DNA of 64,000 nucleotides, from NCBI RefSeq assembly GCF_003595195.1, contig NZ_CP032418.1, positions 570,501 to 634,500 of the forward strand. The letters are read 5' to 3'. The stretch's first letter is position 1. Every line of letters begins with the position of its first letter. This stretch comes from Paenisporosarcina cavernae (lineage in GTDB: Bacteria; Bacillota; Bacilli; Bacillales_A; Planococcaceae). Of the stretch, positions 1,866 to 60,359 are shown in pieces. The translations under genes were made by a program, and so were the position numbers. Below the pieces are notes generated by a model. It saw only the letters and a program-made list of their open reading frames with translations. It had not been told where the DNA came from and did no database searches.

Positions 1866-3437
1866 ATGGAACATTTATCACATAAAGAGAAAATGACAAT
1901 CATTGTTGCGATTATTTCTGCACAATTTTTCGCTGCAGTGAACCAAACAATTGTCGGTAATGCATTACCAAAAATTATCGCCGACCTTGGCGGAATCGAT
2001 TATTATAGCTGGGTATTCACAAGCTTCATGTTAACGTCTGCGATTATGACAGTAGTAGCAGGAAAGCTATCCGATATCTTCGGACGGAAACCTTTCTTCC
2101 TCATCGGGATTGGGGTATTCACAGTAGGTGCGTTTTTAAGTGGATTATCCGCAACGATCGAACAACTCATTATTTTCCGTGCGATCCAAGGGATTGGAGC
2201 AGGTCTCATCATCCCAACCGCTTTCGCTGCAGTCGGAGATTTATTTTCCCCACGTGAACGAGGAAAATGGCAAGGGATTATGAGCTCGGTTTTCGGAATT
2301 TCCTCTGTTATAGGACCAACAATCGGCGGATATATCGTTGATAATTTAGAATGGAAATGGGTATTCTGGGTCTTCTTACCGCTTGGAATCGTCGCGTTCG
2401 TTTTAATCTGGAGACTATTCCCGTCAGTGGAACGCCGTCAAAATGAAACAATCGACTACCTTGGCTCCATCGTATTAGCTGCGACACTCGTATCGTTACT
2501 TCTAGGGTTATCATGGGGTGGCACAGAATACGCGTGGGACTCAGGCGTGATTCTAGGTTTATTCGCAGGAGCAATCATCGGAGTAATCCTCTTTATCTTT
2601 GTGGAAAATCGAGCGAAAAGTCCGATTTTACCACTACACTTGTTTAAATACTCGAACTTTGCGTTCTCGAACTTAATCGGTTTTGCCGTCGGGATCGGAA
2701 TGTTCGGCGGAATTATGTATATCCCGTACTTCTTACAAGGGGTACTCGGATACTCCGCAACGCACTCTAGCTTTATTTCCATGACTATGACACTTGGTCT
2801 AGTTGCAGCGAGTACATTTGGTGGTAACTTAATTACCAAAACCGGGAAATACAAGCGACAAGCAACACTCGGATTATTTTTAACAGTGATTGGTCTGTAC
2901 CTTATGTCTACAATGGACGCAGGAACGAATCAGTTCGTGTTAGTCGGCTATCAACTCTTAGTCGGATTCGGAATCGGGATTGGCTTAACCGTGTTTACAC
3001 TCGTTGCGCAAAACTCGGTCTCACAAGACTATCTCGGGGTTGCGACAGCTGCCACACAACTATTCCGTTCAATCGGTGGTACAGTAGGGGTTGCCGTACT
3101 TGGAACCGTGTTAAATACATCGATGAAAAACAAACTCGAATCGTATGACACATCTGCCATTCCGCCAGAAGCGGCAGAAACACTCGCCAAATTCCAAAAC
3201 CCAGCGTTGCTCCTTGACCATACTCAACTAGATGCAATCGAATCAAAACTACCAGCAGAAATGTTGCCGTTGTTCAACGAAATGATTCACCACCTGCAAG
3301 ACGCACTAACATACGCACTTTCCAACGTGTTCATGTTATCGTCGGTTGTTATGTTAGTTGCGGCGTTACTCACATTCTTCATCAGTGAAGTCCCACTACG
3401 TGGTAAAGCACCAGAAGCAAAAACGAAAGCTGAATAA
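1866..3437 (+). CDS. DHA2-family (EmrB/QacA-type) MFS multidrug efflux transporter
   Basis: Proton-driven drug exporter of the inner membrane, 523 residues, fitting the 14-helix DHA2 group. Motif A is seen between helices 2 and 3 (GKLSDIFGRKP, about residues 67-77), and a motif-C-like glycine-rich segment (SSVIGPTIGGYIVD) in helix 5. A long loop before the last helix (about residues 415-475) is typical of DHA2. The start ATG has GAAGGAGAT upstream. It is co-transcribed with the MarR gene and closes with a terminator. Substrate range is unknown. Confidence 0.9.
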   Translation: MEHLSHKEKMTIIVAIISAQFFAAVNQTIVGNALPKIIADLGGIDYYSWVFTSFMLTSAIMTVVAGKLSDIFGRKPFFLIGIGVFTVGAFLSGLSATIEQLIIFRAIQGIGAGLIIPTAFAAVGDLFSPRERGKWQGIMSSVFGISSVIGPTIGGYIVDNLEWKWVFWVFLPLGIVAFVLIWRLFPSVERRQNETIDYLGSIVLAATLVSLLLGLSWGGTEYAWDSGVILGLFAGAIIGVILFIFVENRAKSPILPLHLFKYSNFAFSNLIGFAVGIGMFGGIMYIPYFLQGVLGYSATHSSFISMTMTLGLVAASTFGGNLITKTGKYKRQATLGLFLTVIGLYLMSTMDAGTNQFVLVGYQLLVGFGIGIGLTVFTLVAQNSVSQDYLGVATAATQLFRSIGGTVGVAVLGTVLNTSMKNKLESYDTSAIPPEAAETLAKFQNPALLLDHTQLDAIESKLPAEMLPLFNEMIHHLQDALTYALSNVFMLSSVVMLVAALLTFFISEVPLRGKAPEAKTKAE

Positions 3438-3450
3438 CAAACTAGAGTCT

Positions 3451-3481
3451 CTAAACCCCAACCGGTTTAGGGGCTTTTTTT
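3451..3481 (+). terminator. Rho-independent terminator of the marR-MFS operon
   Basis: Hairpin ctaaaccccaaccggtttagggg (CCCC/GGGG with an inner aacc/ggtt) followed by seven T residues, 14 bp after the transporter stop. Confidence 0.7.
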
Positions 3482-3705
3482 GGCAATGAAGTGCGGAGCG
3501 TGGAAAGTACCAAAATCGTATTTTCAGGAACTGTCACTTAATCTTACGGACACTAAGTATCGAGGGTGTTTTTCCGGAAAAGAATACATGTAAAATACCC
3601 GAAAATTTTATTTTCAAGGTGGGTTTTAGGGGTGAAATGAATATTCTCATGTTTTACAACAATTTACTCAAAAAGTATGCTCCTTTTTAAAAAGGAGAGA
3701 TTCAC

Positions 3706-4614
3706 ATGCTACTTAAAAAGAAAGAACCAAGTGTCGAACTCGAGAAAATGATTCTGCTTCGAAATCGATTGAGTACTACCCATCCTACTTACCCGAAATT
3801 AAATCGCGACATTCAACAAATAACAGCAGGAGATTTCGGGGAAGAAATCGTCGCGAAATTTATCCAAGCATACAATCATCCAACAAAAGCGTATATTTTG
3901 CACGACTTACTACTAGCTTCTAACTCAGATTTTCAACTGGATCATGTACTTGTCACAAATTCCTGCATTATCATTGTTGAAACGAAACATATAAAAGGGG
4001 ACATACACATACACGACCGTCCGGCACACATGACAAGGCAAATCGACACTGGACCTATTGAACGTTTCGAATCGCCAGTTATGCAGTTGAACCGATCCAT
4101 TTTATTTTTATCGGATTGGTTAATCGAAAGAGGAGTAGATATTCCGGTCAAAGGGATACTAGTATTTTCCCACGCAGATGCGCTCGTCACTTCAGACTCA
4201 AGTGATCATCTAATAACCAAACCAAAATACGTCTCGATGAAATTGAGAGAAATCAGAATAGAAAAAGCAAGTCTAACTTCTCTACAAACAAAGCAACTCG
4301 CCACAGCGATCATGACTTCCCACAAAATCTATGAGAATAAATACTTTCAATCGCAGTATCCATATAAAAAAGAGGACCTTCAAACAGGAGTGCAATGTCA
4401 GAAGTGTGCGAGATTCGGGATGGAGAAAAGAAGGCAAACGTGGATGTGTGAGTGCGGCCATCGTGATAAAAATGCCCATTTATCTGCAATGAAAGACTAC
4501 CAACTACTGCTCGGGAAACTACCAAACACAGAATCTATCATGGATTTCTTGCAGGTACCAAGTCGTTACGTTGCAAGAAGGATTATGAAAAAATATTCTT
4601 TATCAGAATCATAA
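3706..4614 (+). CDS. NERD-domain (nuclease-related) protein with zinc ribbon
   Basis: 302 residues. The NERD domain occupies about residues 40-155, with the conserved core GDFGEEIVAKF, DFQLDHVLV and IIIVETKHIKG; the Asp-Glu-x-Lys arrangement resembles PD-(D/E)xK nucleases. A zinc-ribbon-like segment follows near residues 228-250 (CQKC ... MCECGH), and the C-terminal tail looks like a small helical domain. NERD proteins are thought to act on DNA, but no activity is established for this subfamily. The start is ATG 3706 with AAAAAGGAGAG upstream. It stands alone, flanked downstream by the repeat array. Confidence 0.85.
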   Translation: MLLKKKEPSVELEKMILLRNRLSTTHPTYPKLNRDIQQITAGDFGEEIVAKFIQAYNHPTKAYILHDLLLASNSDFQLDHVLVTNSCIIIVETKHIKGDIHIHDRPAHMTRQIDTGPIERFESPVMQLNRSILFLSDWLIERGVDIPVKGILVFSHADALVTSDSSDHLITKPKYVSMKLREIRIEKASLTSLQTKQLATAIMTSHKIYENKYFQSQYPYKKEDLQTGVQCQKCARFGMEKRRQTWMCECGHRDKNAHLSAMKDYQLLLGKLPNTESIMDFLQVPSRYVARRIMKKYSLSES

Positions 4615-4616
4615 AA

Positions 4617-5390
4617 ATCCAGCAGAAATCGTATTCATGTGACTTGAATCGCACACAATTTGTTTATATCGCACATAATATCAGAATATCGCCCCATGAG
4701 CGTGTTTTTGTACCTACACTTTATATCGAATACGACATAACGAGTATCTGCCACTAAGATCAATGCGTTTTCGCCAATGCGAAAACGGTCCATTACAACC
4801 TAAAGGGAGGCTTTCGCTCGCGAAAGCTTCTGATTTAATCTCTGGCAATCAATGTAGTTTGAATCTCAAACTATAAAAAGCATAATAATCCTTCATACAT
4901 TATATAAAAGCGCCACGAATCGCACAGAATTCTTCTGAATCGCACATAATATCAGAATATCGCACCATGTGAGTGTTTTTGTACCTAAACTTTATATCGA
5001 ATAAGACATAACGAGTATCTGCCACTAAGATCAATGCGTTTTCGCCAATGCGAAAACGGTCCATTACAACCTAATGGGAGGCTTTCGCTCGCGAAAGCTT
5101 CTGATTTGATCTCTGGCAATCAATGTAGTTTGAATCTCAAACTATAAAAAGCATAAGAATCCTTCATACATTATATAAAAGCGCCACGAATCGCACACAT
5201 TTCTTCTGAATCGCACATAATTTCAGAGAATCGCACCATGTGAGTGTTATTTTATCCACTATTTATATCGAATACGGCATAAATATCATCCTAAACCAAA
5301 ATCGATACGTCTTCTCCAAACCGAACACGGTCCACTACAACAAAAATGATGGCTTTCGCGCGCGAAAGCCTCTGATTTCCCTCTTCAACC
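4617..5390 (+). repeat. Tandem array, about 2.8 copies of a 271-bp double-hairpin repeat
   Basis: The sequence gaatcgcaca recurs at 4646, 4917 and 5188, exactly 271 bp apart. Copies 1 and 2 are nearly identical through the two hairpins (cgttttcgccaatgcgaaaacg and gctttcgctcgcgaaagc). Copy 3 is diverged: its first hairpin is lost (gtcttctccaaaccgaacac), while the second (gctttcgcgcgcgaaagc) remains. It belongs to the same family as 878-1205. The long reading frame crossing copy 3 into the EamA gene is not a real N-terminus. Confidence 0.9.
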
Positions 5391-6872: not shown

Positions 6873-7034
6873 TTTTGGCAATGAAAGAACTCTGCGCTTC
6901 CCCGCGTACCACCACGAAAACCAGATTGCCCCGGCTGGCGACACTCTCTCACCAGGCGTAAAACGCATCTTTCCAGAAATTTTTGTTTCAGCTTCACCTG
7001 AAAAGACCTTATACTAAATCCACCTACAATCTTG

Positions 7035-7040
7035 TATACT
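7035..7040 (+). promoter_or_regulatory. Probable -10 element for patA
   Basis: TATACT preceded by TTG, 36 bp upstream of the ATG. No convincing -35 hexamer is seen 16-18 bp upstream, so this is a weak call. Confidence 0.4.
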
Positions 7041-7075
7041 AATACCAACTTGAACATCCATTAGGAGGGTCTTCC

Positions 7076-8257
7076 ATGTCACCGTCTATCAACCCGCGCG
7101 TTCACGAAATTGCGATTTCTGGCATTCGTCAGTTTGCCAATCAATTAGTCCATTATCCTGATGCGGTTAACTTAACAATTGGGCAGCCCGATTTTCCAAC
7201 TCCCGATAACGTCAAACAAGCAGCCATTTCGGCTATCGAAAATGACTTAACCGGGTATTCCCATAACGCTGGCTTAATTGATCTTCGAAATGCGGTAAGT
7301 AAATTCTTTTACGGCACGTACAACTTAACCTATAACGCGGAAACCGATATCATTATCACAATTGGAGCATCAGAAGCAATCGACACGACATTTCGCGCAA
7401 TTTTAGAACCAGGTGATGAAGTCATTTTACCAGCGCCGTTTTATACAGGGTATGAGCCGATTATTAAACTGCTAGGTTGTACACCCGTTTATTTAAATAC
7501 GTCAGATACTGGCTTTGTACCAGATCCCAAACGATTGGAAGCGTTAATAAACGAGAACACGAAAGCCATTCTATTTAATTTCCCAAGTAATCCGACAGGT
7601 GTCACGATTGAAAAAGAACAAATGGACGCACTCGAACAGGTATTAGCACAAAAAGATGTGTTTATTGTATCCGATGAAATTTATTCCTTGAATACTTTCG
7701 AAGGAACTCATACACCGTTTGCGAGTTATCCTTCATTAAAAGACAAAACATTTACGATTCACGGCTTGTCCAAATCACATTCCATGACAGGCTGGCGAAT
7801 TGGGTTTTTAATGGGACCAACAGACGTCATGAAGCACTGCATTAAAATTCATCAATACAACGCGGTGTGTGCGAGTCTTCCAAGTCAATATGCGGCAATC
7901 GAAGCACTAACAAACGGACGCGACAACCCGGCGAAAATGAACGAACACTATATTAATCGTCGCGACTACTTATTAGAACGCCTTCATGCAATGGGTCTTC
8001 CAGTCGAAATCCCAAAAGGTGCCTTTTATTTATTCCCAAGCATCCAACATCTCGGGATGACATCCTTTGAATTTTGCACAAAACTCCTGCAAGATGGAGG
8101 AGTAGCATGCGTTCCTGGCAGTGCTTTTAGTAGCTACGGTGAAGGGTTCATCCGCATTTCGTACGCGTACAAAATGGACACATTAATCGAAGGAATGGAC
8201 CGCATGGATAAGTTTCTTCAATCGTTAAATAACACTCGAAATGTTGAGAGTGTTTAG
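7076..8257 (+). CDS. patA: Aminotransferase class I, PatA (N-acetyl-LL-diaminopimelate aminotransferase type)
   Basis: PLP enzyme of 393 residues that in Bacillus transaminates the acetylated intermediate of the diaminopimelate/lysine pathway, feeding peptidoglycan. It follows B. subtilis PatA closely from memory: EIAISGIRQFAN, LTIGQPDFPTP, IITIGASEAID, SNPTGVT, and the PLP-lysine segment GLSKSHSMTGWRIGF. It also shares KGAFYLFPSI and PGSAFSSYGEGFIRIS. The start is ATG 7076 with TTAGGAGGG. It is monocistronic in appearance, with a short hairpin over the stop codon (8231-8254) lacking a strong T run. A different aromatic or branched-chain specificity cannot be excluded. Confidence 0.85.
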   Translation: MSPSINPRVHEIAISGIRQFANQLVHYPDAVNLTIGQPDFPTPDNVKQAAISAIENDLTGYSHNAGLIDLRNAVSKFFYGTYNLTYNAETDIIITIGASEAIDTTFRAILEPGDEVILPAPFYTGYEPIIKLLGCTPVYLNTSDTGFVPDPKRLEALINENTKAILFNFPSNPTGVTIEKEQMDALEQVLAQKDVFIVSDEIYSLNTFEGTHTPFASYPSLKDKTFTIHGLSKSHSMTGWRIGFLMGPTDVMKHCIKIHQYNAVCASLPSQYAAIEALTNGRDNPAKMNEHYINRRDYLLERLHAMGLPVEIPKGAFYLFPSIQHLGMTSFEFCTKLLQDGGVACVPGSAFSSYGEGFIRISYAYKMDTLIEGMDRMDKFLQSLNNTRNVESV

Positions 8258-8296
8258 TGAATTTTTGTGGGATGATAATTTTGATGAAAAAATTAG

Positions 8297-8395
8297 CTGT
8301 CGACACCTGCAGGATTAGCGTTAGCAGAAGACCCCGCAATGCTAACTTGTTAGCATGAGGAGGCTGAAGCAACGCCTGCGGTAAGCGACAGCTAA
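8297..8395. repeat. About 100-bp imperfect palindrome, Bacillaceae-type interspersed repeat
   Basis: Outer arms ttagctgtcg (8297) and cgacagctaa (to 8395) are exact complements. Inside, cctgcagg pairs with cctgcgg, and the centre holds gcgttagcagaagaccccgc and gaggaggctgaagc blocks. The order resembles GC-rich palindromic intergenic repeats found in many Bacillaceae genomes, recalled rather than searched. It fills the patA-hydrolase gap and would fold into a long stem in RNA. Confidence 0.65.
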
Positions 8396-8432
8396 AAATT
8401 ATTAAGTAATAAATTGAAAGGATTTGACGCAA

Positions 8433-10025
8433 TTGAACTGGCAAACCGAGCAAGACCTGCGAGCACTTCTTTGTGAACTAGTCAGCTGGAAAAGCATGTC
8501 GAGAACGGACGGAGAACGCGATTTTCCGTATAAAGCACACGCGAAATTGCAGCATATCCCGTATTTTCAAGAACATCCCGAGCATCTAGCTTTAGTCGAT
8601 GCAGATCACCACCGGAAATTACTAACCGCATTGTATAAACACGAAAACGCAACTAAAACAATCGTCTTAATCAGTCACTTTGACACGGTAAATACCGAAG
8701 AATACGGAGACTTAGAAGCACTCGCTTTTGAACCCGAAATGCTAACACAAGCGTTACTCGAACGGACAGAGGAATTACCAGAAGATGCGAGAAGAGATTT
8801 ACTATCTGGGGATTACTTATTTGGACGAGGCACGATGGACATGAAAATGGGACTCGCACTACACATGCAGCTGATTGAAAAAGCGGCAGCGGAAAAATGG
8901 CCGATTAATTTAGTTTTATTAACAGTGCCAGATGAAGAAGTAAGTAGTGTCGGAATGCGAGAAGCCGTACCACATTTAATCACTTTAAAAGAAAAGCATC
9001 AATTGGACTACTTCCTCTTCTTAAACGGAGAGCCCGTATTCGCGCAAGAACCAGGGGATAAGAAAACATATATATACTCGGGAACGATTGGTAAAATCAT
9101 GCCCTCCGCACTCGTATACGGAATGGAAACACATGTCGGAGAGCCGTTATCGGGCGTCACCGCGAACTACTTCGCTTCGTTTCTGACAAAAGAAATGGAA
9201 TTCACCGATCAATTTCGTGAAGCGTTTGAAGAAGAGCAAACGCCAATTCCAGTTTCGCTCATGCAAAAAGATTTGAAAATGGAATACTCTGTTCAGACCC
9301 CGTATCGAGCAGCGCTAATGTGGAACGTCTTCACGTTCAAGCAAAATGCGGGAGATATTATGCAGACATTTGAAAAAGTAGCTAATGTTGCAGCGAAAGA
9401 AGCTAACGAGCATTATACGAGAATTTGCGCAAGAGAAAACGTGGCACCAGTAGGGAAGCTCGAAGTGATACGATATGAAAAACTTGTCGAGTATGCGAAA
9501 GATAAATTTGGAGAAGCGGCAGTCACACGAATGGTCGAGGACGTCTGCCGTTACGCTGAAGGTGACGACCGGGATAAATCCTTTAAAATCGTCGACAAAC
9601 TCATGATTGAATGCCAAGAACTAGCACCAGCGTATGTCATCTTCTATGCACCGCCGTATTATCCAGCAGTCAACTCATCCGATGAAGCGGTCATTCAAGA
9701 TGCAACAGCCTTCATTCAACAAGAAGCGAAGGAGGCTTTCGATTTAACTGTCAATCGCATCCATTACTTCAACGGCATATGTGACTTAAGCTATGTCAAT
9801 TACGCCGACACACGCGGTGGGTGGGAACACTTCGAAAACAACACACCCGTGTGGAACTTAAGCTACACCATCCCGTTCAAAGAAATGGCACAACTCCAAG
9901 CACCAGTCTTTAACGTCGGTCCGTTTGGAAAAGATCCACATAAACGAACAGAACGATTACACATCAACAGCGCATTTGTCGAAACACCGTACTTGTTGGA
10001 AAAATTAATCAGAAACTGGTGTTAA
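8433..10025 (+). CDS. M20-family metallohydrolase, RocB-like
   Basis: 530 residues, longer than ordinary M20 peptidases (about 380-420) and in the range of the RocB (arginine-utilisation) subgroup. Zinc-site motifs are visible: HFDTVN (first His/Asp region, about residue 81), GRGTMDMKMGLA (bridging Asp), and VPDEEVSSVGMR (catalytic Glu pair). No signal peptide, so cytoplasmic. I chose TTG 8433 because GAAAGG at 8416-8421 is nine to ten bases upstream; the earlier in-frame TTG 8424 would sit almost on that site. The role of RocB itself in arginine catabolism is poorly defined, so the substrate is open. Confidence 0.8.
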   Translation: MNWQTEQDLRALLCELVSWKSMSRTDGERDFPYKAHAKLQHIPYFQEHPEHLALVDADHHRKLLTALYKHENATKTIVLISHFDTVNTEEYGDLEALAFEPEMLTQALLERTEELPEDARRDLLSGDYLFGRGTMDMKMGLALHMQLIEKAAAEKWPINLVLLTVPDEEVSSVGMREAVPHLITLKEKHQLDYFLFLNGEPVFAQEPGDKKTYIYSGTIGKIMPSALVYGMETHVGEPLSGVTANYFASFLTKEMEFTDQFREAFEEEQTPIPVSLMQKDLKMEYSVQTPYRAALMWNVFTFKQNAGDIMQTFEKVANVAAKEANEHYTRICARENVAPVGKLEVIRYEKLVEYAKDKFGEAAVTRMVEDVCRYAEGDDRDKSFKIVDKLMIECQELAPAYVIFYAPPYYPAVNSSDEAVIQDATAFIQQEAKEAFDLTVNRIHYFNGICDLSYVNYADTRGGWEHFENNTPVWNLSYTIPFKEMAQLQAPVFNVGPFGKDPHKRTERLHINSAFVETPYLLEKLIRNWC

Positions 10026-52374: not shown

Positions 52375-53748
52375 ATGATACAAACATTACTTCAAAAAAA
52401 ATATCTTCTATATATACTTGCATTCATTATCGTTCAACCGGTAATCGATGTGTTAACAACATTCTCCATTTACGTGTTAGAAATTGATGTTACATTTGGT
52501 GTAATAATCCGTGTAGCATTTATGGTGCTTATGGGAGTTCTCCTCTTACTATTTGCGATGAAATCGAAACAAGCAAAACTCTTTGTCGTCTATTTAATAG
52601 GGCTTGCTATCATGATCGTCATCAATATCTATCTAAATACTTCCACTAAAGATCCGTACTATTTATTTGACGAACTAAAGTTTTTCAATAAAGTGGTCTA
52701 TTTCCACGTTGTTTTCCTAGGGTTCTTACTTGTTTATGAGGAGTTAACTCGATTAAAAGTAGATGTAGAAAAAAAGACAACTTCTTATTTATTCTACTCA
52801 GGAGTTATCATTGGACTTGTCTTTATTTTGGCTCAAATAACGGGTACAAGCCTAGCGAACTATGCATCCTACAAAAAAGGATTTTCTGGATGGTTCTTTG
52901 CAGGAAACGAAATCGGAGCAATCATGGCAATGGTGCTTCCAATCGTCGCTTTGTATGCAATTGAACGGACTGCCAATGCGAAAAAACCATGGTTTTGGAT
53001 TCCGTTTGTCATGCTTTCAATGGGAATGCTAGCACTTGGAACAAAGGTGGGGTATGGTGGAATTCTTGTCGTGTTACTTTCAGTTGCAATCGGTAGCCTG
53101 ATTATTTGGTTTTGGAAAAAAGAAGCAACAAAAAAAGTGAAATCTAATTTCGTCGTTTCTGTTTCTCTTATAGTTTTACTTGCTGTTGCTACACCTTTCA
53201 CACCTGTTTTTAGTAACATGTATGCGCACCTTGACTTATTAAACATTGATTTTGGTGGAGAAGACGCACCAGGTGAAGTAGAACCTGAAGATGAAGAACC
53301 GGTTATTACAGAAGAAGAATTTCAAAATCTGGTCTTTAGTTCAAGAGAGAAATACGTAAAAGAATTTGCTCAAGACTTCAATCAAGCACCAACTACACAA
53401 AAGATATTCGGTATGGGATTTGCTGGTAATTACGATGAGAAAGAACTTGGAAAAGATCTGAAAATGATAGAAATGGATTTTTACGATTTGTTTTACTCAT
53501 TTGGATGGCTAGGTTTCATCTATTTAATGACACCTTTTTTCTATTATGCAGTCCGCATAATTGTAAAATTCGTTAAAAATCTGAAAGAATATTTCACATA
53601 CGAATATATGTTATATGGTGTAGCATTATTACTAGGATTAGGAATAGCATATACAGCTGGACATGTCTTTACTGCTCCAGCAGTGTCTATCTATTTAGCA
53701 ATGCTTCTTGCATTTATGAACCGATGGACACCGACTATTAAACTATAA
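52375..53748 (+). CDS. O-antigen ligase/polymerase-like membrane protein (Wzy/WaaL type)
   Basis: 457 residues, ten or more hydrophobic helices, with one large extracytoplasmic loop (about 300-385) rich in acidic residues (GEVEPEDEEPVITEEEFQ) before FGMGFAGNYDEKELG. This layout matches O-antigen ligase-like proteins that polymerise or attach lipid-linked glycans. In Gram-positive bacteria such genes act in polymer assembly, but the substrate is unknown. ATG 52375 follows AAAGGA by seven bases, 13 bp after the GT4 stop. Last gene of the operon; strong terminator next. Confidence 0.8.
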   Translation: MIQTLLQKKYLLYILAFIIVQPVIDVLTTFSIYVLEIDVTFGVIIRVAFMVLMGVLLLLFAMKSKQAKLFVVYLIGLAIMIVINIYLNTSTKDPYYLFDELKFFNKVVYFHVVFLGFLLVYEELTRLKVDVEKKTTSYLFYSGVIIGLVFILAQITGTSLANYASYKKGFSGWFFAGNEIGAIMAMVLPIVALYAIERTANAKKPWFWIPFVMLSMGMLALGTKVGYGGILVVLLSVAIGSLIIWFWKKEATKKVKSNFVVSVSLIVLLAVATPFTPVFSNMYAHLDLLNIDFGGEDAPGEVEPEDEEPVITEEEFQNLVFSSREKYVKEFAQDFNQAPTTQKIFGMGFAGNYDEKELGKDLKMIEMDFYDLFYSFGWLGFIYLMTPFFYYAVRIIVKFVKNLKEYFTYEYMLYGVALLLGLGIAYTAGHVFTAPAVSIYLAMLLAFMNRWTPTIKL

Positions 53749-53756
53749 AACTTCAG

Positions 53757-53795
53757 AAAATAGGCCAATCGGTGTGCGACCGATTGGCCTATTTT
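53757..53795 (+). terminator. Terminator of the tagA-wecC-galU-GT4-ligase operon
   Basis: Perfect 17-bp stem aaaataggccaatcggt/accgattggcctatttt. Confidence 0.93.
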
Positions 53796-53836
53796 GGTAA
53801 TTTTCTAAAAATATACGTGAAATATACAGATATTAG

Positions 53837-53864
53837 TTGATATTCATTATTTATTTGCTAAAAT
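53837..53864 (+). promoter_or_regulatory. Strong sigma-A-type promoter of the S-layer gene
   Basis: TTGATA-16 bp-TAAAAT with TGC before the -10 (extended -10). It sets a leader of about 190 nt before the start codon at 54062. The leader holds a perfect hairpin aatattc/gaatatt at 53931-53948. Long stable leaders are common for S-layer mRNAs. Confidence 0.65.
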
Positions 53865-54061
53865 AGAATAGAAGTTTAAAGAGTGGCAACTTTTTACTGT
53901 TCTACCATTCTAGAAATGTAAACGGAATTTAATATTCTCGTGAATATTGTCAAAGAATAGTAGCATATAGTGAGAATTGTTGTTACAATTTAAACTGTGT
54001 AATAATGTTGGAGAATCCAACCAAATCACAGAAGAACGAAAAAACAGGAGGAATACTACAC

Positions 54062-56578
54062 ATGGCTTATCAACCAAAGTCGTACAAAAAGTTCGTTGCA
54101 ACTGCAGCGACAGCTACATTAGTAGCATCAGCAATCGCTCCAGTAGCGTCTGCAAACTCTAACACAGCAGCATTCACGGATGTTTCTGCAAACTACAAAG
54201 TGGCAGTAGACTACTTAGTAGAAAACAATATCTCACAAGGATATACAGAAACTCAATTTGGCGTTCAAATGGACATCAAACGTGGGGATGCAGCAATCAT
54301 CCTTGCAAAAGCTTTAGGAATCGTTGAAGACGAAAACGCTGCTCCATCTGGTTTCTCTGACGTTCCTACTCGTGGAGCTCTATTCATCAACACGTTAAAA
54401 GAAGCAGGTATCATTAATGGTAAAACTGCTACTAACTTTGGATTTAACGATCCAATCACTCGTGGTGAAGTTGCTTTAATTATGGCACGTGCTGCAGCTT
54501 ATAACTTAGAAGGTGATGTTTCTGAATTGAAATTCACTGACGTTGCTGATCGTTATAAAGAAGCAGTTGCTGGATTAGTAGAAGCTGGAATCACTCAAGG
54601 TAAATCAGCTACTCAATTCGGAACTAACGATCCAATCACTCGTGGAGAGTATGCAATCTTTGTTTACAAAGCGGAGACTATGACTCCAGCAACTCCTGAA
54701 GTTGTTTCAGTAAGTGCGATTAACGCAACTGAAGTAGTTGTAGACTTTAGCGTATTACTTGATAAAACTGATGCTGAAACTGTAGGAAACTACAAAATTG
54801 GTGCTGTATCTCCAACTTCAGCAACATTAAATAGCGACAAAAAATCCGTTACTTTGAAGTTTGCTAATGCAAGCGATGTTGAAGTAACTAATTCTGTATT
54901 TGTAGTAGAGCCAATTCAAACTGCTGCTGATGCTTCAGTTGAAACAGCTAAATATACACAAGTATTTTCTTTTGAAGATACAATTCGTCCAACTGTAACT
55001 GGAGTTTCATACCCAACTAATGCAACTGCTAAAGTTACATTATCAGAAGCTGTTGACGTTTTAGATGGAACAGAACTAGCAGATTACATCACTGTAACAG
55101 ATGCTAATGGAGCAGATATCACTGATACTACTCTTTATACTTTATCAGCTGACAAAAAATCTTTCACAGTAAATACTGCTGGTTTCACTAAAGGATTAGC
55201 ATACTCATTATCAATCGTGGGATTAAAAGATCTTGGTGGAAATTTAATTTCTCCTAACCCAGCTGTTGTTAATATTACAAAAACTGAAGTAGATTCAGTT
55301 CTTCCAACAGTAACAAGTGTTACTTCTTTGGATACTAACAAATTTAAAGTAGTATTCTCTGAAGCACTTGATACTACTGGAACTTACTTCACTTATGATG
55401 TAGACGCTTCTGGTACACCTGTAACAGTAAACAGTGCAAATGCTACTATGAATGACGCTGGAACAGAATTTATTGTTGACTTAGGTGCACCACTATCAGC
55501 TGGTCCACATGCTATTGCAATTGATTCTTATGAAGATCCTTCTGCTAACGCTGGTAATCCTTACAGCAAATTAGTAAACTTTGCTGCAGATACTACTAAT
55601 CCTACTGTAGCTTCAACTTCAGTAAAAACATTATCAGGTGTTCGTTATATAGCTGTAACTTTCACTGAGGAAGTAACATTAAATGCGCAAACAGTTAATT
55701 TCTCTTATGTACAAGATGGAGTTTACAAAACTGGTACAATTGCAGCTTCTTCTCTAGCAGCTGTTGATTTAGATGAAAATGGCGTTGATGAATCAGTACT
55801 TATCAATACAGAGGATTTCGATGGTTTAGGAAATGCACTTAAATCTGGAGTTTACTCAATTTCTTTACCTTCTGGTTTAGTTACTGATACATCTCAAAAC
55901 ACTAACGATAACGCTGCAACTACTGTAAAAGTTACTTTAGGTGACCTTACTTCTACAGATACTACTAAACCTGGTATCGCAGGAGTTGACGTTCAATCTA
56001 TCGATAACGATACAGTTGAAGTTACATTTAGCGAAGATGTTTCAAACGAAACTGCATTAAATCTAGCTAACTATACAGTTGAAGGAAAACAAGTATTCGA
56101 TTCTGCTGTATTCTATGGTGACAAAACGACAGTTCGTTTAACATTAAAAGCAGGTGCTATTAAGTTAAACGGTGACTATCAAGTTGTCATTAAAAACATT
56201 AAAGATACTGCTGGAAATCTTATGAATACTGTTACACGTATTGAGACTTTCACTGAAAACACAGCTCCTGCTTTATCTTCAGCTGTATTAACTGCTAACA
56301 ATGTTATTACTTTAAAATTCAATGAAGATATGAATGTTCTTAGCATTCAAGAAGCACTTGCTGAAGCTGATTTTGAAGTATTCGTTAATGGAGTAGCTGA
56401 AACTGGAGTTACTGAAGCATCAACTGATGCTAGAACATTTACATTAACTTTAGCTGATGCATTAAATGCTACAGAATATAACTCTACAATTACGCTTAAA
56501 CCAACTGTAGATTTCGATGTTGAAGATGCTAATGGTAATGCGCATCCAACATTCACTTCTGTAACTGTAACTAAATAA
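54062..56578 (+). CDS. Major S-layer protein candidate (SLH plus Ig-like domains)
   Basis: 838 residues from ATG 54062, with CAGGAGG upstream; the earlier in-frame ATG 54005 has no ribosome site. Signal peptide about 1-31 (ATLVASAIAPVASA). Three SLH domains about 33-205 (AFTDVSANYKVAVDYL, GFSDVPTRGALFINTL, KFTDVADRYKEAVAGL). Four to five Ig-like beta domains follow (TPEVVSVSAINATEVVVDFS; RPTVTGVSYPTNATAKVTLS; and so on). Almost no Cys, Met-poor, Thr/Val/Ala-rich, with codons like those of highly expressed genes (act, gct, gaa). Strong promoter and terminator, directly after the wall-polymer operon. Other SLH proteins could be the main lattice, but this is the best candidate here. Confidence 0.88.
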   Translation: MAYQPKSYKKFVATAATATLVASAIAPVASANSNTAAFTDVSANYKVAVDYLVENNISQGYTETQFGVQMDIKRGDAAIILAKALGIVEDENAAPSGFSDVPTRGALFINTLKEAGIINGKTATNFGFNDPITRGEVALIMARAAAYNLEGDVSELKFTDVADRYKEAVAGLVEAGITQGKSATQFGTNDPITRGEYAIFVYKAETMTPATPEVVSVSAINATEVVVDFSVLLDKTDAETVGNYKIGAVSPTSATLNSDKKSVTLKFANASDVEVTNSVFVVEPIQTAADASVETAKYTQVFSFEDTIRPTVTGVSYPTNATAKVTLSEAVDVLDGTELADYITVTDANGADITDTTLYTLSADKKSFTVNTAGFTKGLAYSLSIVGLKDLGGNLISPNPAVVNITKTEVDSVLPTVTSVTSLDTNKFKVVFSEALDTTGTYFTYDVDASGTPVTVNSANATMNDAGTEFIVDLGAPLSAGPHAIAIDSYEDPSANAGNPYSKLVNFAADTTNPTVASTSVKTLSGVRYIAVTFTEEVTLNAQTVNFSYVQDGVYKTGTIAASSLAAVDLDENGVDESVLINTEDFDGLGNALKSGVYSISLPSGLVTDTSQNTNDNAATTVKVTLGDLTSTDTTKPGIAGVDVQSIDNDTVEVTFSEDVSNETALNLANYTVEGKQVFDSAVFYGDKTTVRLTLKAGAIKLNGDYQVVIKNIKDTAGNLMNTVTRIETFTENTAPALSSAVLTANNVITLKFNEDMNVLSIQEALAEADFEVFVNGVAETGVTEASTDARTFTLTLADALNATEYNSTITLKPTVDFDVEDANGNAHPTFTSVTVTK

Positions 56579-56630
56579 TACCAACAAGAGGTATTCCTGG
56601 TTAATTTATACTATTTTGTAATAGTATTAA

Positions 56631-56662
56631 AATCCCTGTAGAAATTCTACAGGGATTTTTTT
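56631..56662 (+). terminator. Terminator after the S-layer gene
   Basis: Perfect stem aatccctgtagaa/ttctacagggatt with TTTTT. Confidence 0.92.
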
Positions 56663-56804
56663 ATACATAATATTCTTGTTTTAAGGTTTGTGATTATTTT
56701 GATTATTAGAAAATCATCTTTTATATAAAGTATTTATATAGTCGAACTATTATATTATCAATATGTAATTCTATTTTTTAGTGGAACATTAAGGAGGATA
56801 TTCT

Positions 56805-57298
56805 ATGTTTGAAAAATTCAGAAAGAAAAAACAAGATGTTTTTGAAGTATGTGATGAACAGATAAACCCAGATGAATCAAACTTGAAGAAATAGAATTAG
56901 TTACGAAGACTATTGAGGAACCAAGAATGCAAGAACATGAAAAATATTACTCAAATGAAGGATCTTGGAATAAAGTTCAAATATTCGCAAAAAAGGCAGG
57001 TTCCAATGTTATATATGCTGTACTAATACTTTATTTCACATTGCAGAAACCTGATATTCCTTTGAGAGCTAAAGCTACTATAGCAGGGGCATTAGGTTAT
57101 TTTATATTCCCTATTGATATAATTCCAGATGTCACTTTGGGAGTAGGTTTTGTTGATGATTTAGGTATGATAACTGCGGCATTGTTTCAAGTAGCTATGT
57201 ATATTGATGAAGACATAAAAAAACATGCAAAAGATAAGCTTAAAGATTGGTTTGGAGAAAATATAGATACATCTGAAATAGATGATAAATTGAAATAG
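56805..57298 (+). pseudogene. DUF1232 (YkvA-like) membrane protein, frameshifted
   Basis: ATG 56805 has a perfect AAGGAGG but its frame stops at 56892-56894 after 29 residues. A frame with one base less near 56880 continues ...LEEIELVTKTIEEP into the internal ATG 56927. From there, 123 residues give the DUF1232 core ALGYFIFPIDIIPDVTLGVGFVDDLGM. A GAGGA eight bases before 56927 could allow reinitiation, so a short product is possible. The DUF1232 family is widespread and of unknown function. The gene sits between the two S-layer sequences. Confidence 0.7.
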
Positions 57299-57368
57299 TT
57301 AATATATTGTATTTCGTTTTTCTAAACATTAAGGTATTCATCTACTAATCTAGAAAATGCTAAATTAA

Positions 57369-58997
57369 CAAATTGAAAAAATTGATGTTGAAGTAACAGA
57401 TGTTATATTTGTAGTTAATCCTGTCGCAACTGCTGAGGATACTTCGGTTAAAACTGAAAAGTTTACACAAGTTTTCACATATGAAGATACAACTCGTCCT
57501 GTTATCACTAGCACAACTTACTCAGATTATCAGCATTCTGTTATTCATTTTAGTGAGCCAATGGCTAACTTAGGGACTGTAACTGTTTCTAATAGTAATA
57601 TAGCTATTGGTTCATTATCAACAGATGGAAAATCAGTAGCTGTTGATTTATCAGCAGCACCTGAGGGTTCATATACTGTTACGATGGTTGGTGCTTATGA
57701 TAAGGGAAATAACCTAATCACTCCAAACCCTGTGACAGTTAACGTAGTTAAGTCTAAAACAGATACAGTTGCTCCTACAGTTACCGGTGTTACTACTTCT
57801 GGAACTTCAAATCTATCTGTGAAATTCTCTGAAGCACTTTCAGCGGTTCCTGTTGTAACAGTAACTGGTGGTGGAGCTGCAACGGTTACACAAGATTTGA
57901 CAGATCCTACTAAATATAACGTAACTTTAACCACTCCTGTAACTGGTGTACAAACAGTTTCAGTAACTGCTGGATATACAGATCCAAGTGGAAATGCTGG
58001 TTTAGCTTACTCTACATTAGCTCAATTTACAGCTGATACTACTGCACCTACGTATGTTAAACACTCAGTTCAAACAATTGCTGGCGTACAATACCTTGTT
58101 GTTAGAAATAACGAAGCTGTTGCTTCTACTGCAGGCGTTGTATCTGGAACTTACACAGACGCTAACTCAGTTACACAAAATGTTGCTAATCTTGGAGCTA
58201 CAAGCTTGTATGATGCTAATGGAGACGGTATTAATGAATCAGTTAGAGTTAATTTAACTGGTAATACTGCGGGTAACTACACAGTAACTCTTCCTGCTGG
58301 TTATGCTACAGATGCATCAACTAATGCAAGTGCTAGTAAATCAGTTAGTTTTGCTCTAGGTACAGTTGCTAATACAGCTAAACCTACAGTGAACAGTGTT
58401 ATTACTCAATTTACAATTGGAGATGTTAATAAGTTTACTGTCAACTTCAGTGATCTTGTAACAGCTGCTACTGCATTAAACGTTAATAACTACAAAGTTG
58501 AAGGGCAGTCAGTATTTAGCAGTGCTATTTTTGACGGTGACCAACAAACAGTTACATTAACTTTAAAAGATGGAGCTATTACAACTGATGGACTTAGAAA
58601 CTTCACAGTTAATAATGTTACAGGCGTTAATGTAGTAGTAATGGATGCTCATACAGAGCAAGTTATCTTTGATGAAAATGTAGAACCGACAATTACTTCT
58701 GCAACTTTAACTGCTGCTGATACAATTGCATTAAACTTCTCTGAATTAATGACTGCTGCTTCACTTACAGATAATGATAACTTCGAAGTTTATATCAATG
58801 GTTCAAAAGCAACAGTTACTACTGTAGCAGCTGGAGCAGACAATTCTAAGTACATTATTACATTGGATGCTACTACTGTTGTAAACAACTTAAGTGACAC
58901 AGTGACTGTTAACGTACTAAATACGAATGATGTTACTGATGCTGGTACACCTGCAAATACACTTAAAACTACAGGTTCAATCTCTGTAGCTAAATAA
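57369..58997 (+). pseudogene. 5'-truncated second S-layer cassette (silent)
   Basis: Open frame of 542 codons from just after a TAA (57366), with no start codon or ribosome site before ATG 57561. It begins with homology to residue 272 onward of the 54062 protein: DVEVTDVIFVVNPVATAEDTS against DVEVTNSVFVVEPIQTAADAS, then KFTQVF.YEDTTRP. The paralogy runs to the end (TALNVNNYKVEG against TALNLANYTVEG). Signal peptide and SLH domains are missing. Direct orientation, own terminator. Could serve as a donor for S-layer recombination, or be a dead duplicate. Confidence 0.85.
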
Positions 58998-59008
58998 TTT
59001 TATTTTTA

Positions 59009-59042
59009 AAACTCTGTGAGAAAATTCTCACAGAGTTTTTTT
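59009..59042 (+). terminator. Terminator after the silent S-layer cassette
   Basis: Perfect stem aaactctgtgag/ctcacagagttt with a seven-T run. Confidence 0.92.
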
Positions 59043-59249
59043 GTTTATATTAATTTTTACGGTTCTACATTAAATGTGAGATATGTCTATAATTTAAAGC
59101 ATGAAAAATTTTACAGGTGCTAGTGTTCAAAACAATTCAGATATTGTCTATAATTTGATTGGATTTTCGCTTATGAGGAGGTCTTTTCTCTTGTTGTTTC
59201 ACGATTTTCAAAACCTCTTATGTTACACTTTTTATAGGAGGTGTTTCGA

Positions 59250-60359
59250 ATGATCAAACAAGAGATAAAATCGATCTATTATTTGCGGTTGTCGGCGATG
59301 ATGATGGTAGTATTGATTCATACGACTGCGCAGTATCGACATTTGTTTGATGTAAACACGTTCCAATCTCGTTTTTATCATTTTATTAATAATATAACGC
59401 GTGTAGAGTCTGGTATTTTTATCATGCTTGTTGGAATTGTTTTCTTTTATAATTATCAAGATCGAAAGTTTGATATGCCGCCGTTACTTACTTATTGGAA
59501 AAAGCGTGTTGTATACATATTAATTCCATTTGTTGTTTGGTCGCTTGTTTATGAGATCCATGCAGTTTATTTACAAACGAGAGAATGGAATTCATCAGAT
59601 GTTTTAAATAGAATTGTTACCGGACAAAGTCATTATCAATTATATTTTATCTTTATTGTTGTACAATTTTATCTTGTGTTTCCTTTAGTTATGAGCATTG
59701 TAAAATGGTTACCTTCGGTCAAAAAATATTTAGCTCTTATCGGTATATTCATTGAATTTGTTTTTTTCTTGCTTGATTATACATTTCGTCTTATTGATAT
59801 TCCGTTCTTTTTAGAATCCTTTGGTTCGTTTTTAGTCGGAGGTTGGATAGGTCTTACAATTCAAGAACAGCAATTGAAGGTATCGAACAAAAAGATCAGT
59901 ATATGGGGAATTATTTTTGCTATCGCTGGAATAGCTACTGTCTTCATTCGGTACCAAAATATGTATATAGCGACTCTTAGTATTCCAATTGAATTGTACC
60001 GTCTTATTACGATGACATTTATTATAGGAGGAAGTTATTTCGTCTACTTGCTTTCCGAAAAACTTGTTTTGACTCTTTCTACCAATATGACCTCCATGAT
60101 TAAGTCTATTGCCTATTATTCTTTTGGTTTCTATTTACTCCATCCACTTGTTTTGTATTATGTCATGGAGTGGATACCAACTCGAGGCACTCCAGGATCA
60201 TTTCACTTAACGATTATGATTCAGTATATTTTCACGCTCTTATTATGCTATCTCATCATCTGGTCATTCCACCGATTTGTGCCTTTTGCAAGTTTTGTTT
60301 TTGGAAAACTTCCAAAAAACTCCTACCTACCTTGGCAAGCATATAAAAAAGTCAATTAA
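59250..60359 (+). CDS. Membrane acyltransferase (acyltransferase_3 family)
   Basis: 369 residues from ATG 59250; AGGAGG at 59235-59240 is nine bases upstream, whereas GTG 59241 touches it. Ten hydrophobic helices. The first has YYLRLSAMMMVVLIHTT with the conserved Arg and His of the OafA/IcaC group. These proteins O-acylate exported sugars (succinyl or acetyl). No SGNH domain is attached. Probably decorates the wall polymer or the GT2 glycan, by place; unproven. Confidence 0.87.
   Translation: MIKQEIKSIYYLRLSAMMMVVLIHTTAQYRHLFDVNTFQSRFYHFINNITRVESGIFIMLVGIVFFYNYQDRKFDMPPLLTYWKKRVVYILIPFVVWSLVYEIHAVYLQTREWNSSDVLNRIVTGQSHYQLYFIFIVVQFYLVFPLVMSIVKWLPSVKKYLALIGIFIEFVFFLLDYTFRLIDIPFFLESFGSFLVGGWIGLTIQEQQLKVSNKKISIWGIIFAIAGIATVFIRYQNMYIATLSIPIELYRLITMTFIIGGSYFVYLLSEKLVLTLSTNMTSMIKSIAYYSFGFYLLHPLVLYYVMEWIPTRGTPGSFHLTIMIQYIFTLLLCYLIIWSFHRFVPFASFVFGKLPKNSYLPWQAYKKVN

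Follow-up and report, generated by a model that had tools for sequence, protein, structure and literature searches.

An S-layer gene is followed by a headless copy of its outer part

The window, by which we mean the whole 64,000-nt stretch of Paenisporosarcina cavernae DNA analysed here, covers C1:570501-634500 of a 2.54 Mb genome assembled as one contig. It contains an S-layer gene, which we call gene A (54062-56578), encoding an apparent signal peptide in front of three SLH domains and Ig-like repeats. Further downstream lies a second frame, B, which a first-pass annotation had described as a silent, promoterless repeat of the outer part of A from residue 272 on. Our comparison bears out the anatomy. 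From residue 272 of A and residue 6 of B, the two align over 530 columns with 39.2% protein identity and 53.4% DNA identity; B stands in direct orientation to A and has a terminator of its own (Table 1). The frame opens after a TAA at 57366 and continues to its end free of stops, while the other five frames of the same stretch hold between 15 and 82. B also lacks what it was said to lack: there is no match to the SLH domains of A, no signal peptide by eye and no start in the first 64 codons, the first in-frame ATG, GTG or TTG being at 57561. Promoter-like sites show no excess across 53600-59300 (23 versus 24.3 in shuffles), with a weak 9-of-12 promoter-like match at 57382, at the start of B. 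When B was searched against the genome at E <= 0.001, the only matches were A and B themselves.

Table 1. Features of the S-layer locus, in window coordinates
Feature	Position	Strand	Remarks
Head of S-layer gene A	54062..54715	+	signal peptide (by eye), three SLH domains
Exchange word GCGATTAACGC (codons A-I-N-A) inside GTAAGTGCGATTAAC	54716..54726	+	
Present tail of gene A, Ig-like repeats	54727..56578	+	
Hairpin and T run 3' of gene A	56630..56662	+	read from the sequence; the terminator scan has no such entry
DUF1232 (YkvA-like) gene in split frames	56805..57298	+	N-terminal part 56805-56894, body 56927-57298
Headless tail B, 542 codons	57369..58997	+	corresponds to A residues 272-838; no head, start or exchange word
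Terminator of B	59008..59039	+	14-bp stem and T run

Compared with the heads at five loci of the genus, the head of gene A shows 51-55% identity. Directly behind it stands a short word that recurs throughout this work, and in gene A it is the sole match to the pattern GCGATTAACGCNNNNNARNT genome-wide. Third-position GC is 12% in the tail of gene A versus 26% in its SLH part. As proof of a foreign tail this is weak, since third-position GC also falls in 17 other S-layer genes, by 0.07 on average (the gene in the window was outside the filter).

The surroundings of the two frames can be described in turn. The DUF1232 gene between A and B is frameshifted relative to its relatives in loci L042 and L048, and for its body the identity is 74% with a gene of another genus (G062) but at most 51% with those of congeners. 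Given the frameshift and the closer match outside the genus, this gene may be foreign and decaying. SLH-domain matches are concentrated around the S-layer locus, with 32 of the 35 in the genome falling within G000:C1:580000-638000. The genome itself is smaller than those of eight congeners (2.8-4.1 Mb).

The S-layer tail changes directly behind the same word in two sister genomes

Relatives of B were found in 94 of 261 genomes of the bacterial family, the Planococcaceae, at E <= 1e-10; a first scan of named genomes with B showed none. Within the genus, five loci keep the order udg, S-layer gene, M14 peptidase and SLH protein, with GT and waaL following udg in three of them. The sister genomes G005 and G006 were compared in 100-nt windows. 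They are 96-100% identical upstream and through the S-layer head, apart from two windows at 90-91%; identity is 47-74% in the S-layer tail, and the match resumes behind the gene at 96.9% over 3.6 kb. The fitted change point lies directly after GCGATTAACG, where identity drops from 0.99 to 0.62. Behind the S-layer gene of G006, the gap contains a broken stretch that matches the end of the G005 tail at 88% identity over 209 nt. We read this pair as a case in which the tail was probably replaced at GCGATTAACG and the old one left to decay. Among 41 gene pairs with similar heads, some of them not S-layer genes, a few break points fall near the border of head and tail and many fall elsewhere; the word stands at the break only in G005/G006.

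Related elements separate head-bearing genes from headless tails

In a number of other relatives, the space between a head-bearing gene and a headless tail is occupied by an integrative element. Its genes encode two tyrosine recombinases (Int1 and Int2), a helicase or primase, a partner protein of about 250 aa and, often, RadC. In G169 and G146, for example, Int1, a DUF927/Cch-like helicase, Int2 and a partner of about 270 aa lie between the head-bearing gene and the headless tail, and the G169 element also has RadC. Helicases of this type are carried by several elements; that of G169 matches NF047345 at E 4.6e-75, below the cut-off of that family. The partner protein has no Pfam assignment above cut-off and none in NCBIfam, and its C-terminal part matches phrog_2727, a phage family of unknown function, at 1.3e-14.

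We used the partner protein to follow the element through the family. A three-row profile found it in 23 of 261 family genomes at 1e-5 and a 15-row profile in 21 of 261 at 1e-8; among sampled genomes of the class, the 15-row profile found it in 31 of 398, from 12 of 145 genera. A headless surface tail lies within about 5 kb of the Int2/partner pair in 16 of the 21 partner-bearing family genomes (G044, G046, G059, G076, G144, G146, G169, G171, G192, G194, G200, G210, G230, G235, G236 and G247). This count includes G192 and G247, which have no clear A-I-N and the latter of which was judged by eye, G210, where the tail is divergent, and G171 and G194, where further element genes stand in between. 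In the remaining five, three have partner fragments only (G060, G124 and G226), the two sequences of G071 stop behind the partner, and no headless tail was seen near the partner of G256. Outside the family, two small regions (G457 and G438) show no same-strand headless tail behind the partner. In G457 there is a frame resembling a surface protein, but it is encoded on the opposite strand, points towards the partner and is truncated where the region ends.

A scan of named genomes with Int1 gave at least 77 loci. Among the matches listed, 17 (L323-L339) are at least 49% identical to Int1, three of them already in the family set (L323 is G169, L333 is G200 and L338 is G210); the other 60, at 25-32%, look like housekeeping XerC/D. 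A headless tail in the context of an element is present in 12 of these 17 loci, from 11 genomes, among the matches listed. The tail is of S-layer type in Sporosarcina gallistercoris, Anoxybacillus tengchongensis, Neobacillus paridis, Sporosarcina sp. JAI121, Cytobacillus firmus, Bacillus sp. SJS (with the recombinase pair reversed), Salimicrobium flavidum (with the tail cut by the end of the locus) and a Sporosarcina MAG. It is of flagellin type in Neobacillus vireti, where it is split over two frames, in Bacillus massiliglaciei and in Heyndrickxia sporothermodurans (L325, L336), where two elements stand in tandem at the flagellin gene with a headless flagellin after each. As for the other five loci, the sequences of L330 and L334 stop too early, L327 and L339 show decay, and the only headless tail of L328 precedes RadC-Int1.

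In the genus of the window, profile searches found no partner protein in nine genomes, and the Int1 matches in these genomes score like XerC/D. A degenerate pattern for the element end, allowing two mismatches, matched four times in G000, the genome of the window, versus five times with the reversed control, so that no end stood out from the background.

The element boundary falls on a conserved word

Where the arrangement is best preserved, the element interrupts an S-layer gene at codons A-I-N (GCGATTAAC) or a flagellin gene at R-Q-L (CGTCAGTT). The head is joined to a new tail, and the old tail lies headless behind the element with the same word at its start. Comparison of the sequences places the boundary at a conserved codon word within the reading frame, and the host head runs in frame into the element-side tail. 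The word occurs in both the upstream gene and the displaced tail in 12 of 14 S-layer cases, and its nine letters are identical within 11 of the 12 pairs, L326 being one letter off. Eight pairs are spelled GCGATTAAC, while G230 has GCGGTTAAC, G235 has GCGACTAAC and G059 has GCTATCAAC. G044 and G144 have a second upstream gene with another spelling, and the nearer gene was used for pairing. No recognisable upstream word was present within the region examined in G194 and G200. Among flagellin cases, the pairs in G236, L332 and L324 share CGTCAGTT plus one base; L325 has a different reading in its upstream flagellin.

The element end preceding the word is also recognisable. GGTT stands 10-12 nt ahead of the word in nine of 11 distinct ends, often as AGGTTGCTTTT, with L333 and L337 differing. 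These ends are alike for S-layer and flagellin targets, and this similarity supports the word as the boundary. At one flagellin locus (L261, from G236), the head-bearing flagellin beside the element (31-1116) lacks the usual C-terminal end, which the displaced headless copy has.

Headless tails were also surveyed independently of the word, in 75 sequences made up of the window and 74 loci chosen because their proteins are similar to A or B. For four of the 74 the reason was a short matching frame, and none was chosen for the word. Apart from that of the window, headless S-layer frames were found in G171, G206 (two), G146, G169 and G250; a frame in L149 was excluded because the locus sequence begins inside it. 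The start lies at most 26 codons from GCGATTAACGC in five of these six frames, the exception being G250. With loci selected by the word left out, 10 of 19 A-I-N-A motifs are spelled GCGATTAACGC, although GCG makes up only 9% of alanine codons in the S-layer genes surveyed. The word is conserved at the DNA level and not just in the protein.

Some displaced tails match tails that are joined to a head elsewhere: that of G146 is 69% identical to G259, that of G194 71% to Sporosarcina sp. P34 and that of G046 64% to G076. Others reach only about 30% to any head-bearing tail, and the tail of L335 has no match in the set compared. The displaced tail of G046 lacks about 37 codons behind the site, and B lacks 53.

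Several further arrangements were observed at these loci. In L114 (G206), the two headless S-layer tails (2401-5136 and 6947-8908) have opposite orientations and both start near GCGATTAACGC; nearby are integrase-like genes, one confirmed by Pfam, and an IS-like gene, with no partner protein, possibly representing another type of element. In L294 (G147) and L338 (G210), the genes for Int2 and a partner-like protein point away from a headless tail whose start is near A-I-N codons. Genes which we take to be comM-like lie near displaced tails or recombinases in L112, L115, L256, L287 and L292, and in L112 two partial comM-like copies stand on either side of an IS-like gene. The DUF1232 gene of the window has no relative among loci L206-L322, and we rejected it as a candidate for element cargo for that reason.

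Frame B as a probable displaced S-layer tail

We think that B is probably a former S-layer tail that was displaced, after which its first 53 codons, the site and the element were lost. In this scenario, the element, or DNA exchanged at its site, would have entered the gene at GCGATTAAC (54716), directly behind the head that anchors the protein to the cell wall. The gene would have retained its promoter, signal peptide and anchor and been joined to a new surface-exposed tail, giving today's A; the present tail of gene A would then be the newer one. The old tail would have been pushed downstream, without promoter or start, and later deletion would have taken away the genes of the element and the duplicate site, along with the first 53 codons of B. 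With these parts deleted, B could no longer be switched back by excision.

The break at the word in G005/G006, together with the same word in gene A, makes a displaced tail the most likely origin of B. At its border of head and tail (54716-54726), gene A has GTAAGTGCGATTAACGC, a word of the type at which elements sit, and a headless tail in direct orientation follows downstream (57369-58997). B is still open though its divergence from A is old. The second word is absent from the start of B, which begins 159 nt inside the tail, the genome having its one match to the pattern in gene A. Between the two tails, the recombinase pair and partner are absent and only the frameshifted DUF1232 gene is present; nor was a recombinase, element end or second site found in the window. 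Also against a displaced tail are the start of B inside the tail, the DUF1232 gene with no relative in L206-L322, the single case with the word at the break among the 41 gene pairs, and the several displaced tails that lack a close head-bearing match. The window would therefore be, at most, a relic of an element event. Sequence comparison establishes the anatomy of A and B, the arrangement with a resident element in relatives and, in the genus, the break at precisely this word; that such an event took place at this locus, with the recombinases as its agents, is what we infer.

The main rival is that B is a decapitated tandem paralogue, the remainder of two complete neighbouring S-layer genes of which the second recently lost its head by deletion. 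Tandem S-layer genes are known in the family, with runs of three consecutive matches in G154, G155 and G158, and the intact frame of B is compatible with a head lost recently. A tail tree of 36 rows groups A and B as sisters (98/94), on branches of 1.02 and 0.69 changes per column; such a placement is also expected from an old local duplication and counts against a displaced tail. However, five of the six comparable headless tails start near the exchange word and not at random, one sister pair in the genus swaps its tail exactly at the word, and at none of the five other genus loci compared is the S-layer gene immediately followed by another complete one. We therefore regard decapitation as a serious but rather unlikely origin of B.

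It is much less probable that B is a working silent cassette, kept as a donor for gene conversion of A in the manner of Campylobacter fetus sap. In favour of this, the frame of B is free of stops and in direct orientation, and its first 30 codons are the part most similar to A, at 73% DNA identity. Of these 30 residues, 19 are alike, 12 of them with the same codon, and the high DNA likeness is there because the protein is conserved. Over the whole alignment, synonymous sites are near-saturated, and identical residues share their codon in 109 of 208 cases where 100 are expected from codon usage. Nothing points to a recent exchange between the two, and gene conversion was rejected for lack of any high-identity patch. 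The genome also holds one cassette only, with no shared head. The first-pass annotation had proposed a crossover site at 54875 and 57384 and an alignment at the DNA level to look for it. The 14-nt repeat gatgttgaagtaac does exist at both positions, but the longest exact match between A and B measures 16 nt, a length that 7 of 200 synonymous shuffles of B equal or exceed (mean 13.5), so the block is at chance level. The exchange point seen in relatives is instead at 54716 (GCGATTAAC), 159 nt upstream of the 54875 block, and has no copy in B. From the idea of silent-cassette switching, two points survive: the headless tail is silent as far as can be read from its sequence, and the gene family does swap tails by recombination. 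The relatives suggest site-specific insertion of an element in place of homologous switching between cassettes.

A simple dead duplicate of A that decayed in place, which the same annotation had named as the plain alternative, has slightly less in its favour again. The absence of a promoter excess and of a head would fit it, as would the frameshift in the adjoining DUF1232 gene, but divergence at synonymous sites is near saturation and B has no stop. With substitutions alone, the probability of finding no stop in B is 0.011 at 0.1 neutral changes per site and 1e-4 at 0.2, and it is lower with frameshifts. As the frame is still free of stops, B has not been silent for long unless it is under selection. 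Least probable of all is that B is translated from the in-frame ATG at 57561 as a small intracellular or otherwise exported protein, as it has neither an SLH anchor nor a visible signal peptide and its first Ig-like unit is cut mid-way.

An element family that may rewrite the bacterial surface

We lean, by a modest degree, towards a broader model in which a family of elements in the Bacilli rewrites the surface of its host. These elements would insert into S-layer or flagellin genes at A-I-N or R-Q-L words, supply a new exposed tail and store the old one headless behind them; the window would be a relic of this process. The recombinase pair would carry out both integration and excision, and the displaced tail would stay silent. 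Excision between the two words would restore the old protein, making an intact locus a reversible switch, and the locus in the window would be locked.

S-layer proteins and flagellin are the first contact for phages, predators and immune systems, and an exchange of tails may benefit the host against phages or other surface-directed attack. Mobile DNA that replaces the exposed part only would explain why anchors are constant and tails differ among sister species, and would also explain the existence of headless 'cryptic' S-layer genes. Surface change would become testable as site-specific, possibly reversible, recombination, and the recombinase pair with its undescribed partner protein is offered for study.

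Comparison with known systems

No published report of such elements was found in titles and the opening parts of abstracts, a search whose scope did not extend to subscription journals and preprints. In the parts of the Lysinibacillus SlpC paper that we consulted, the terms 'cryptic' and 'silent' do not occur (PMC4213006). The sap locus of Campylobacter fetus holds several S-layer homologues at one locus, and antigen change is described there as proceeding via DNA recombination (PMC4943207); according to a title in the reference list of that paper, the silent homologues share a conserved N-terminus. The locus described here resembles sap in having S-layer homologues at one locus. It differs in that the tail is headless and, in relatives, lies behind an element with tyrosine recombinases, and the extended identity for homologous exchange of the C. 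fetus type is absent (53% at the DNA level, with 16 nt as the longest exact match). Nor is B an SLH-anchored S-layer gene in its own right, as it has no SLH domains and consists of a tail only.

The closest likeness by position may be in Bacillus sphaericus 2362, where Bowditch in 1989 reportedly described a cryptic S-layer gene downstream of the 125-kDa gene. This too is a second, silent S-layer-like frame downstream of an active gene, in the same bacterial family; to our knowledge, no element or exchange word has been described for it. In rhs and polymorphic toxin genes, a constant head gains a new tail and displaced headless tails stay downstream. There, the exchanged parts are toxin tips, whereas here they are S-layer and flagellin tails and come with a recombinase element. 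SCC elements are brought to mind by the DUF927/Cch-like helicase, but they use ccr serine recombinases, while the elements described here have tyrosine recombinases and target a surface-protein gene. Integrons express the newest insert, next to the promoter, and keep older ones silent. The present elements differ in that no attC-like cassettes have been shown and every insert amounts to a complete element that brings its own recombinases; they are alike in that the promoter-proximal insert would be expressed, and in the stacked copies of Heyndrickxia sporothermodurans.
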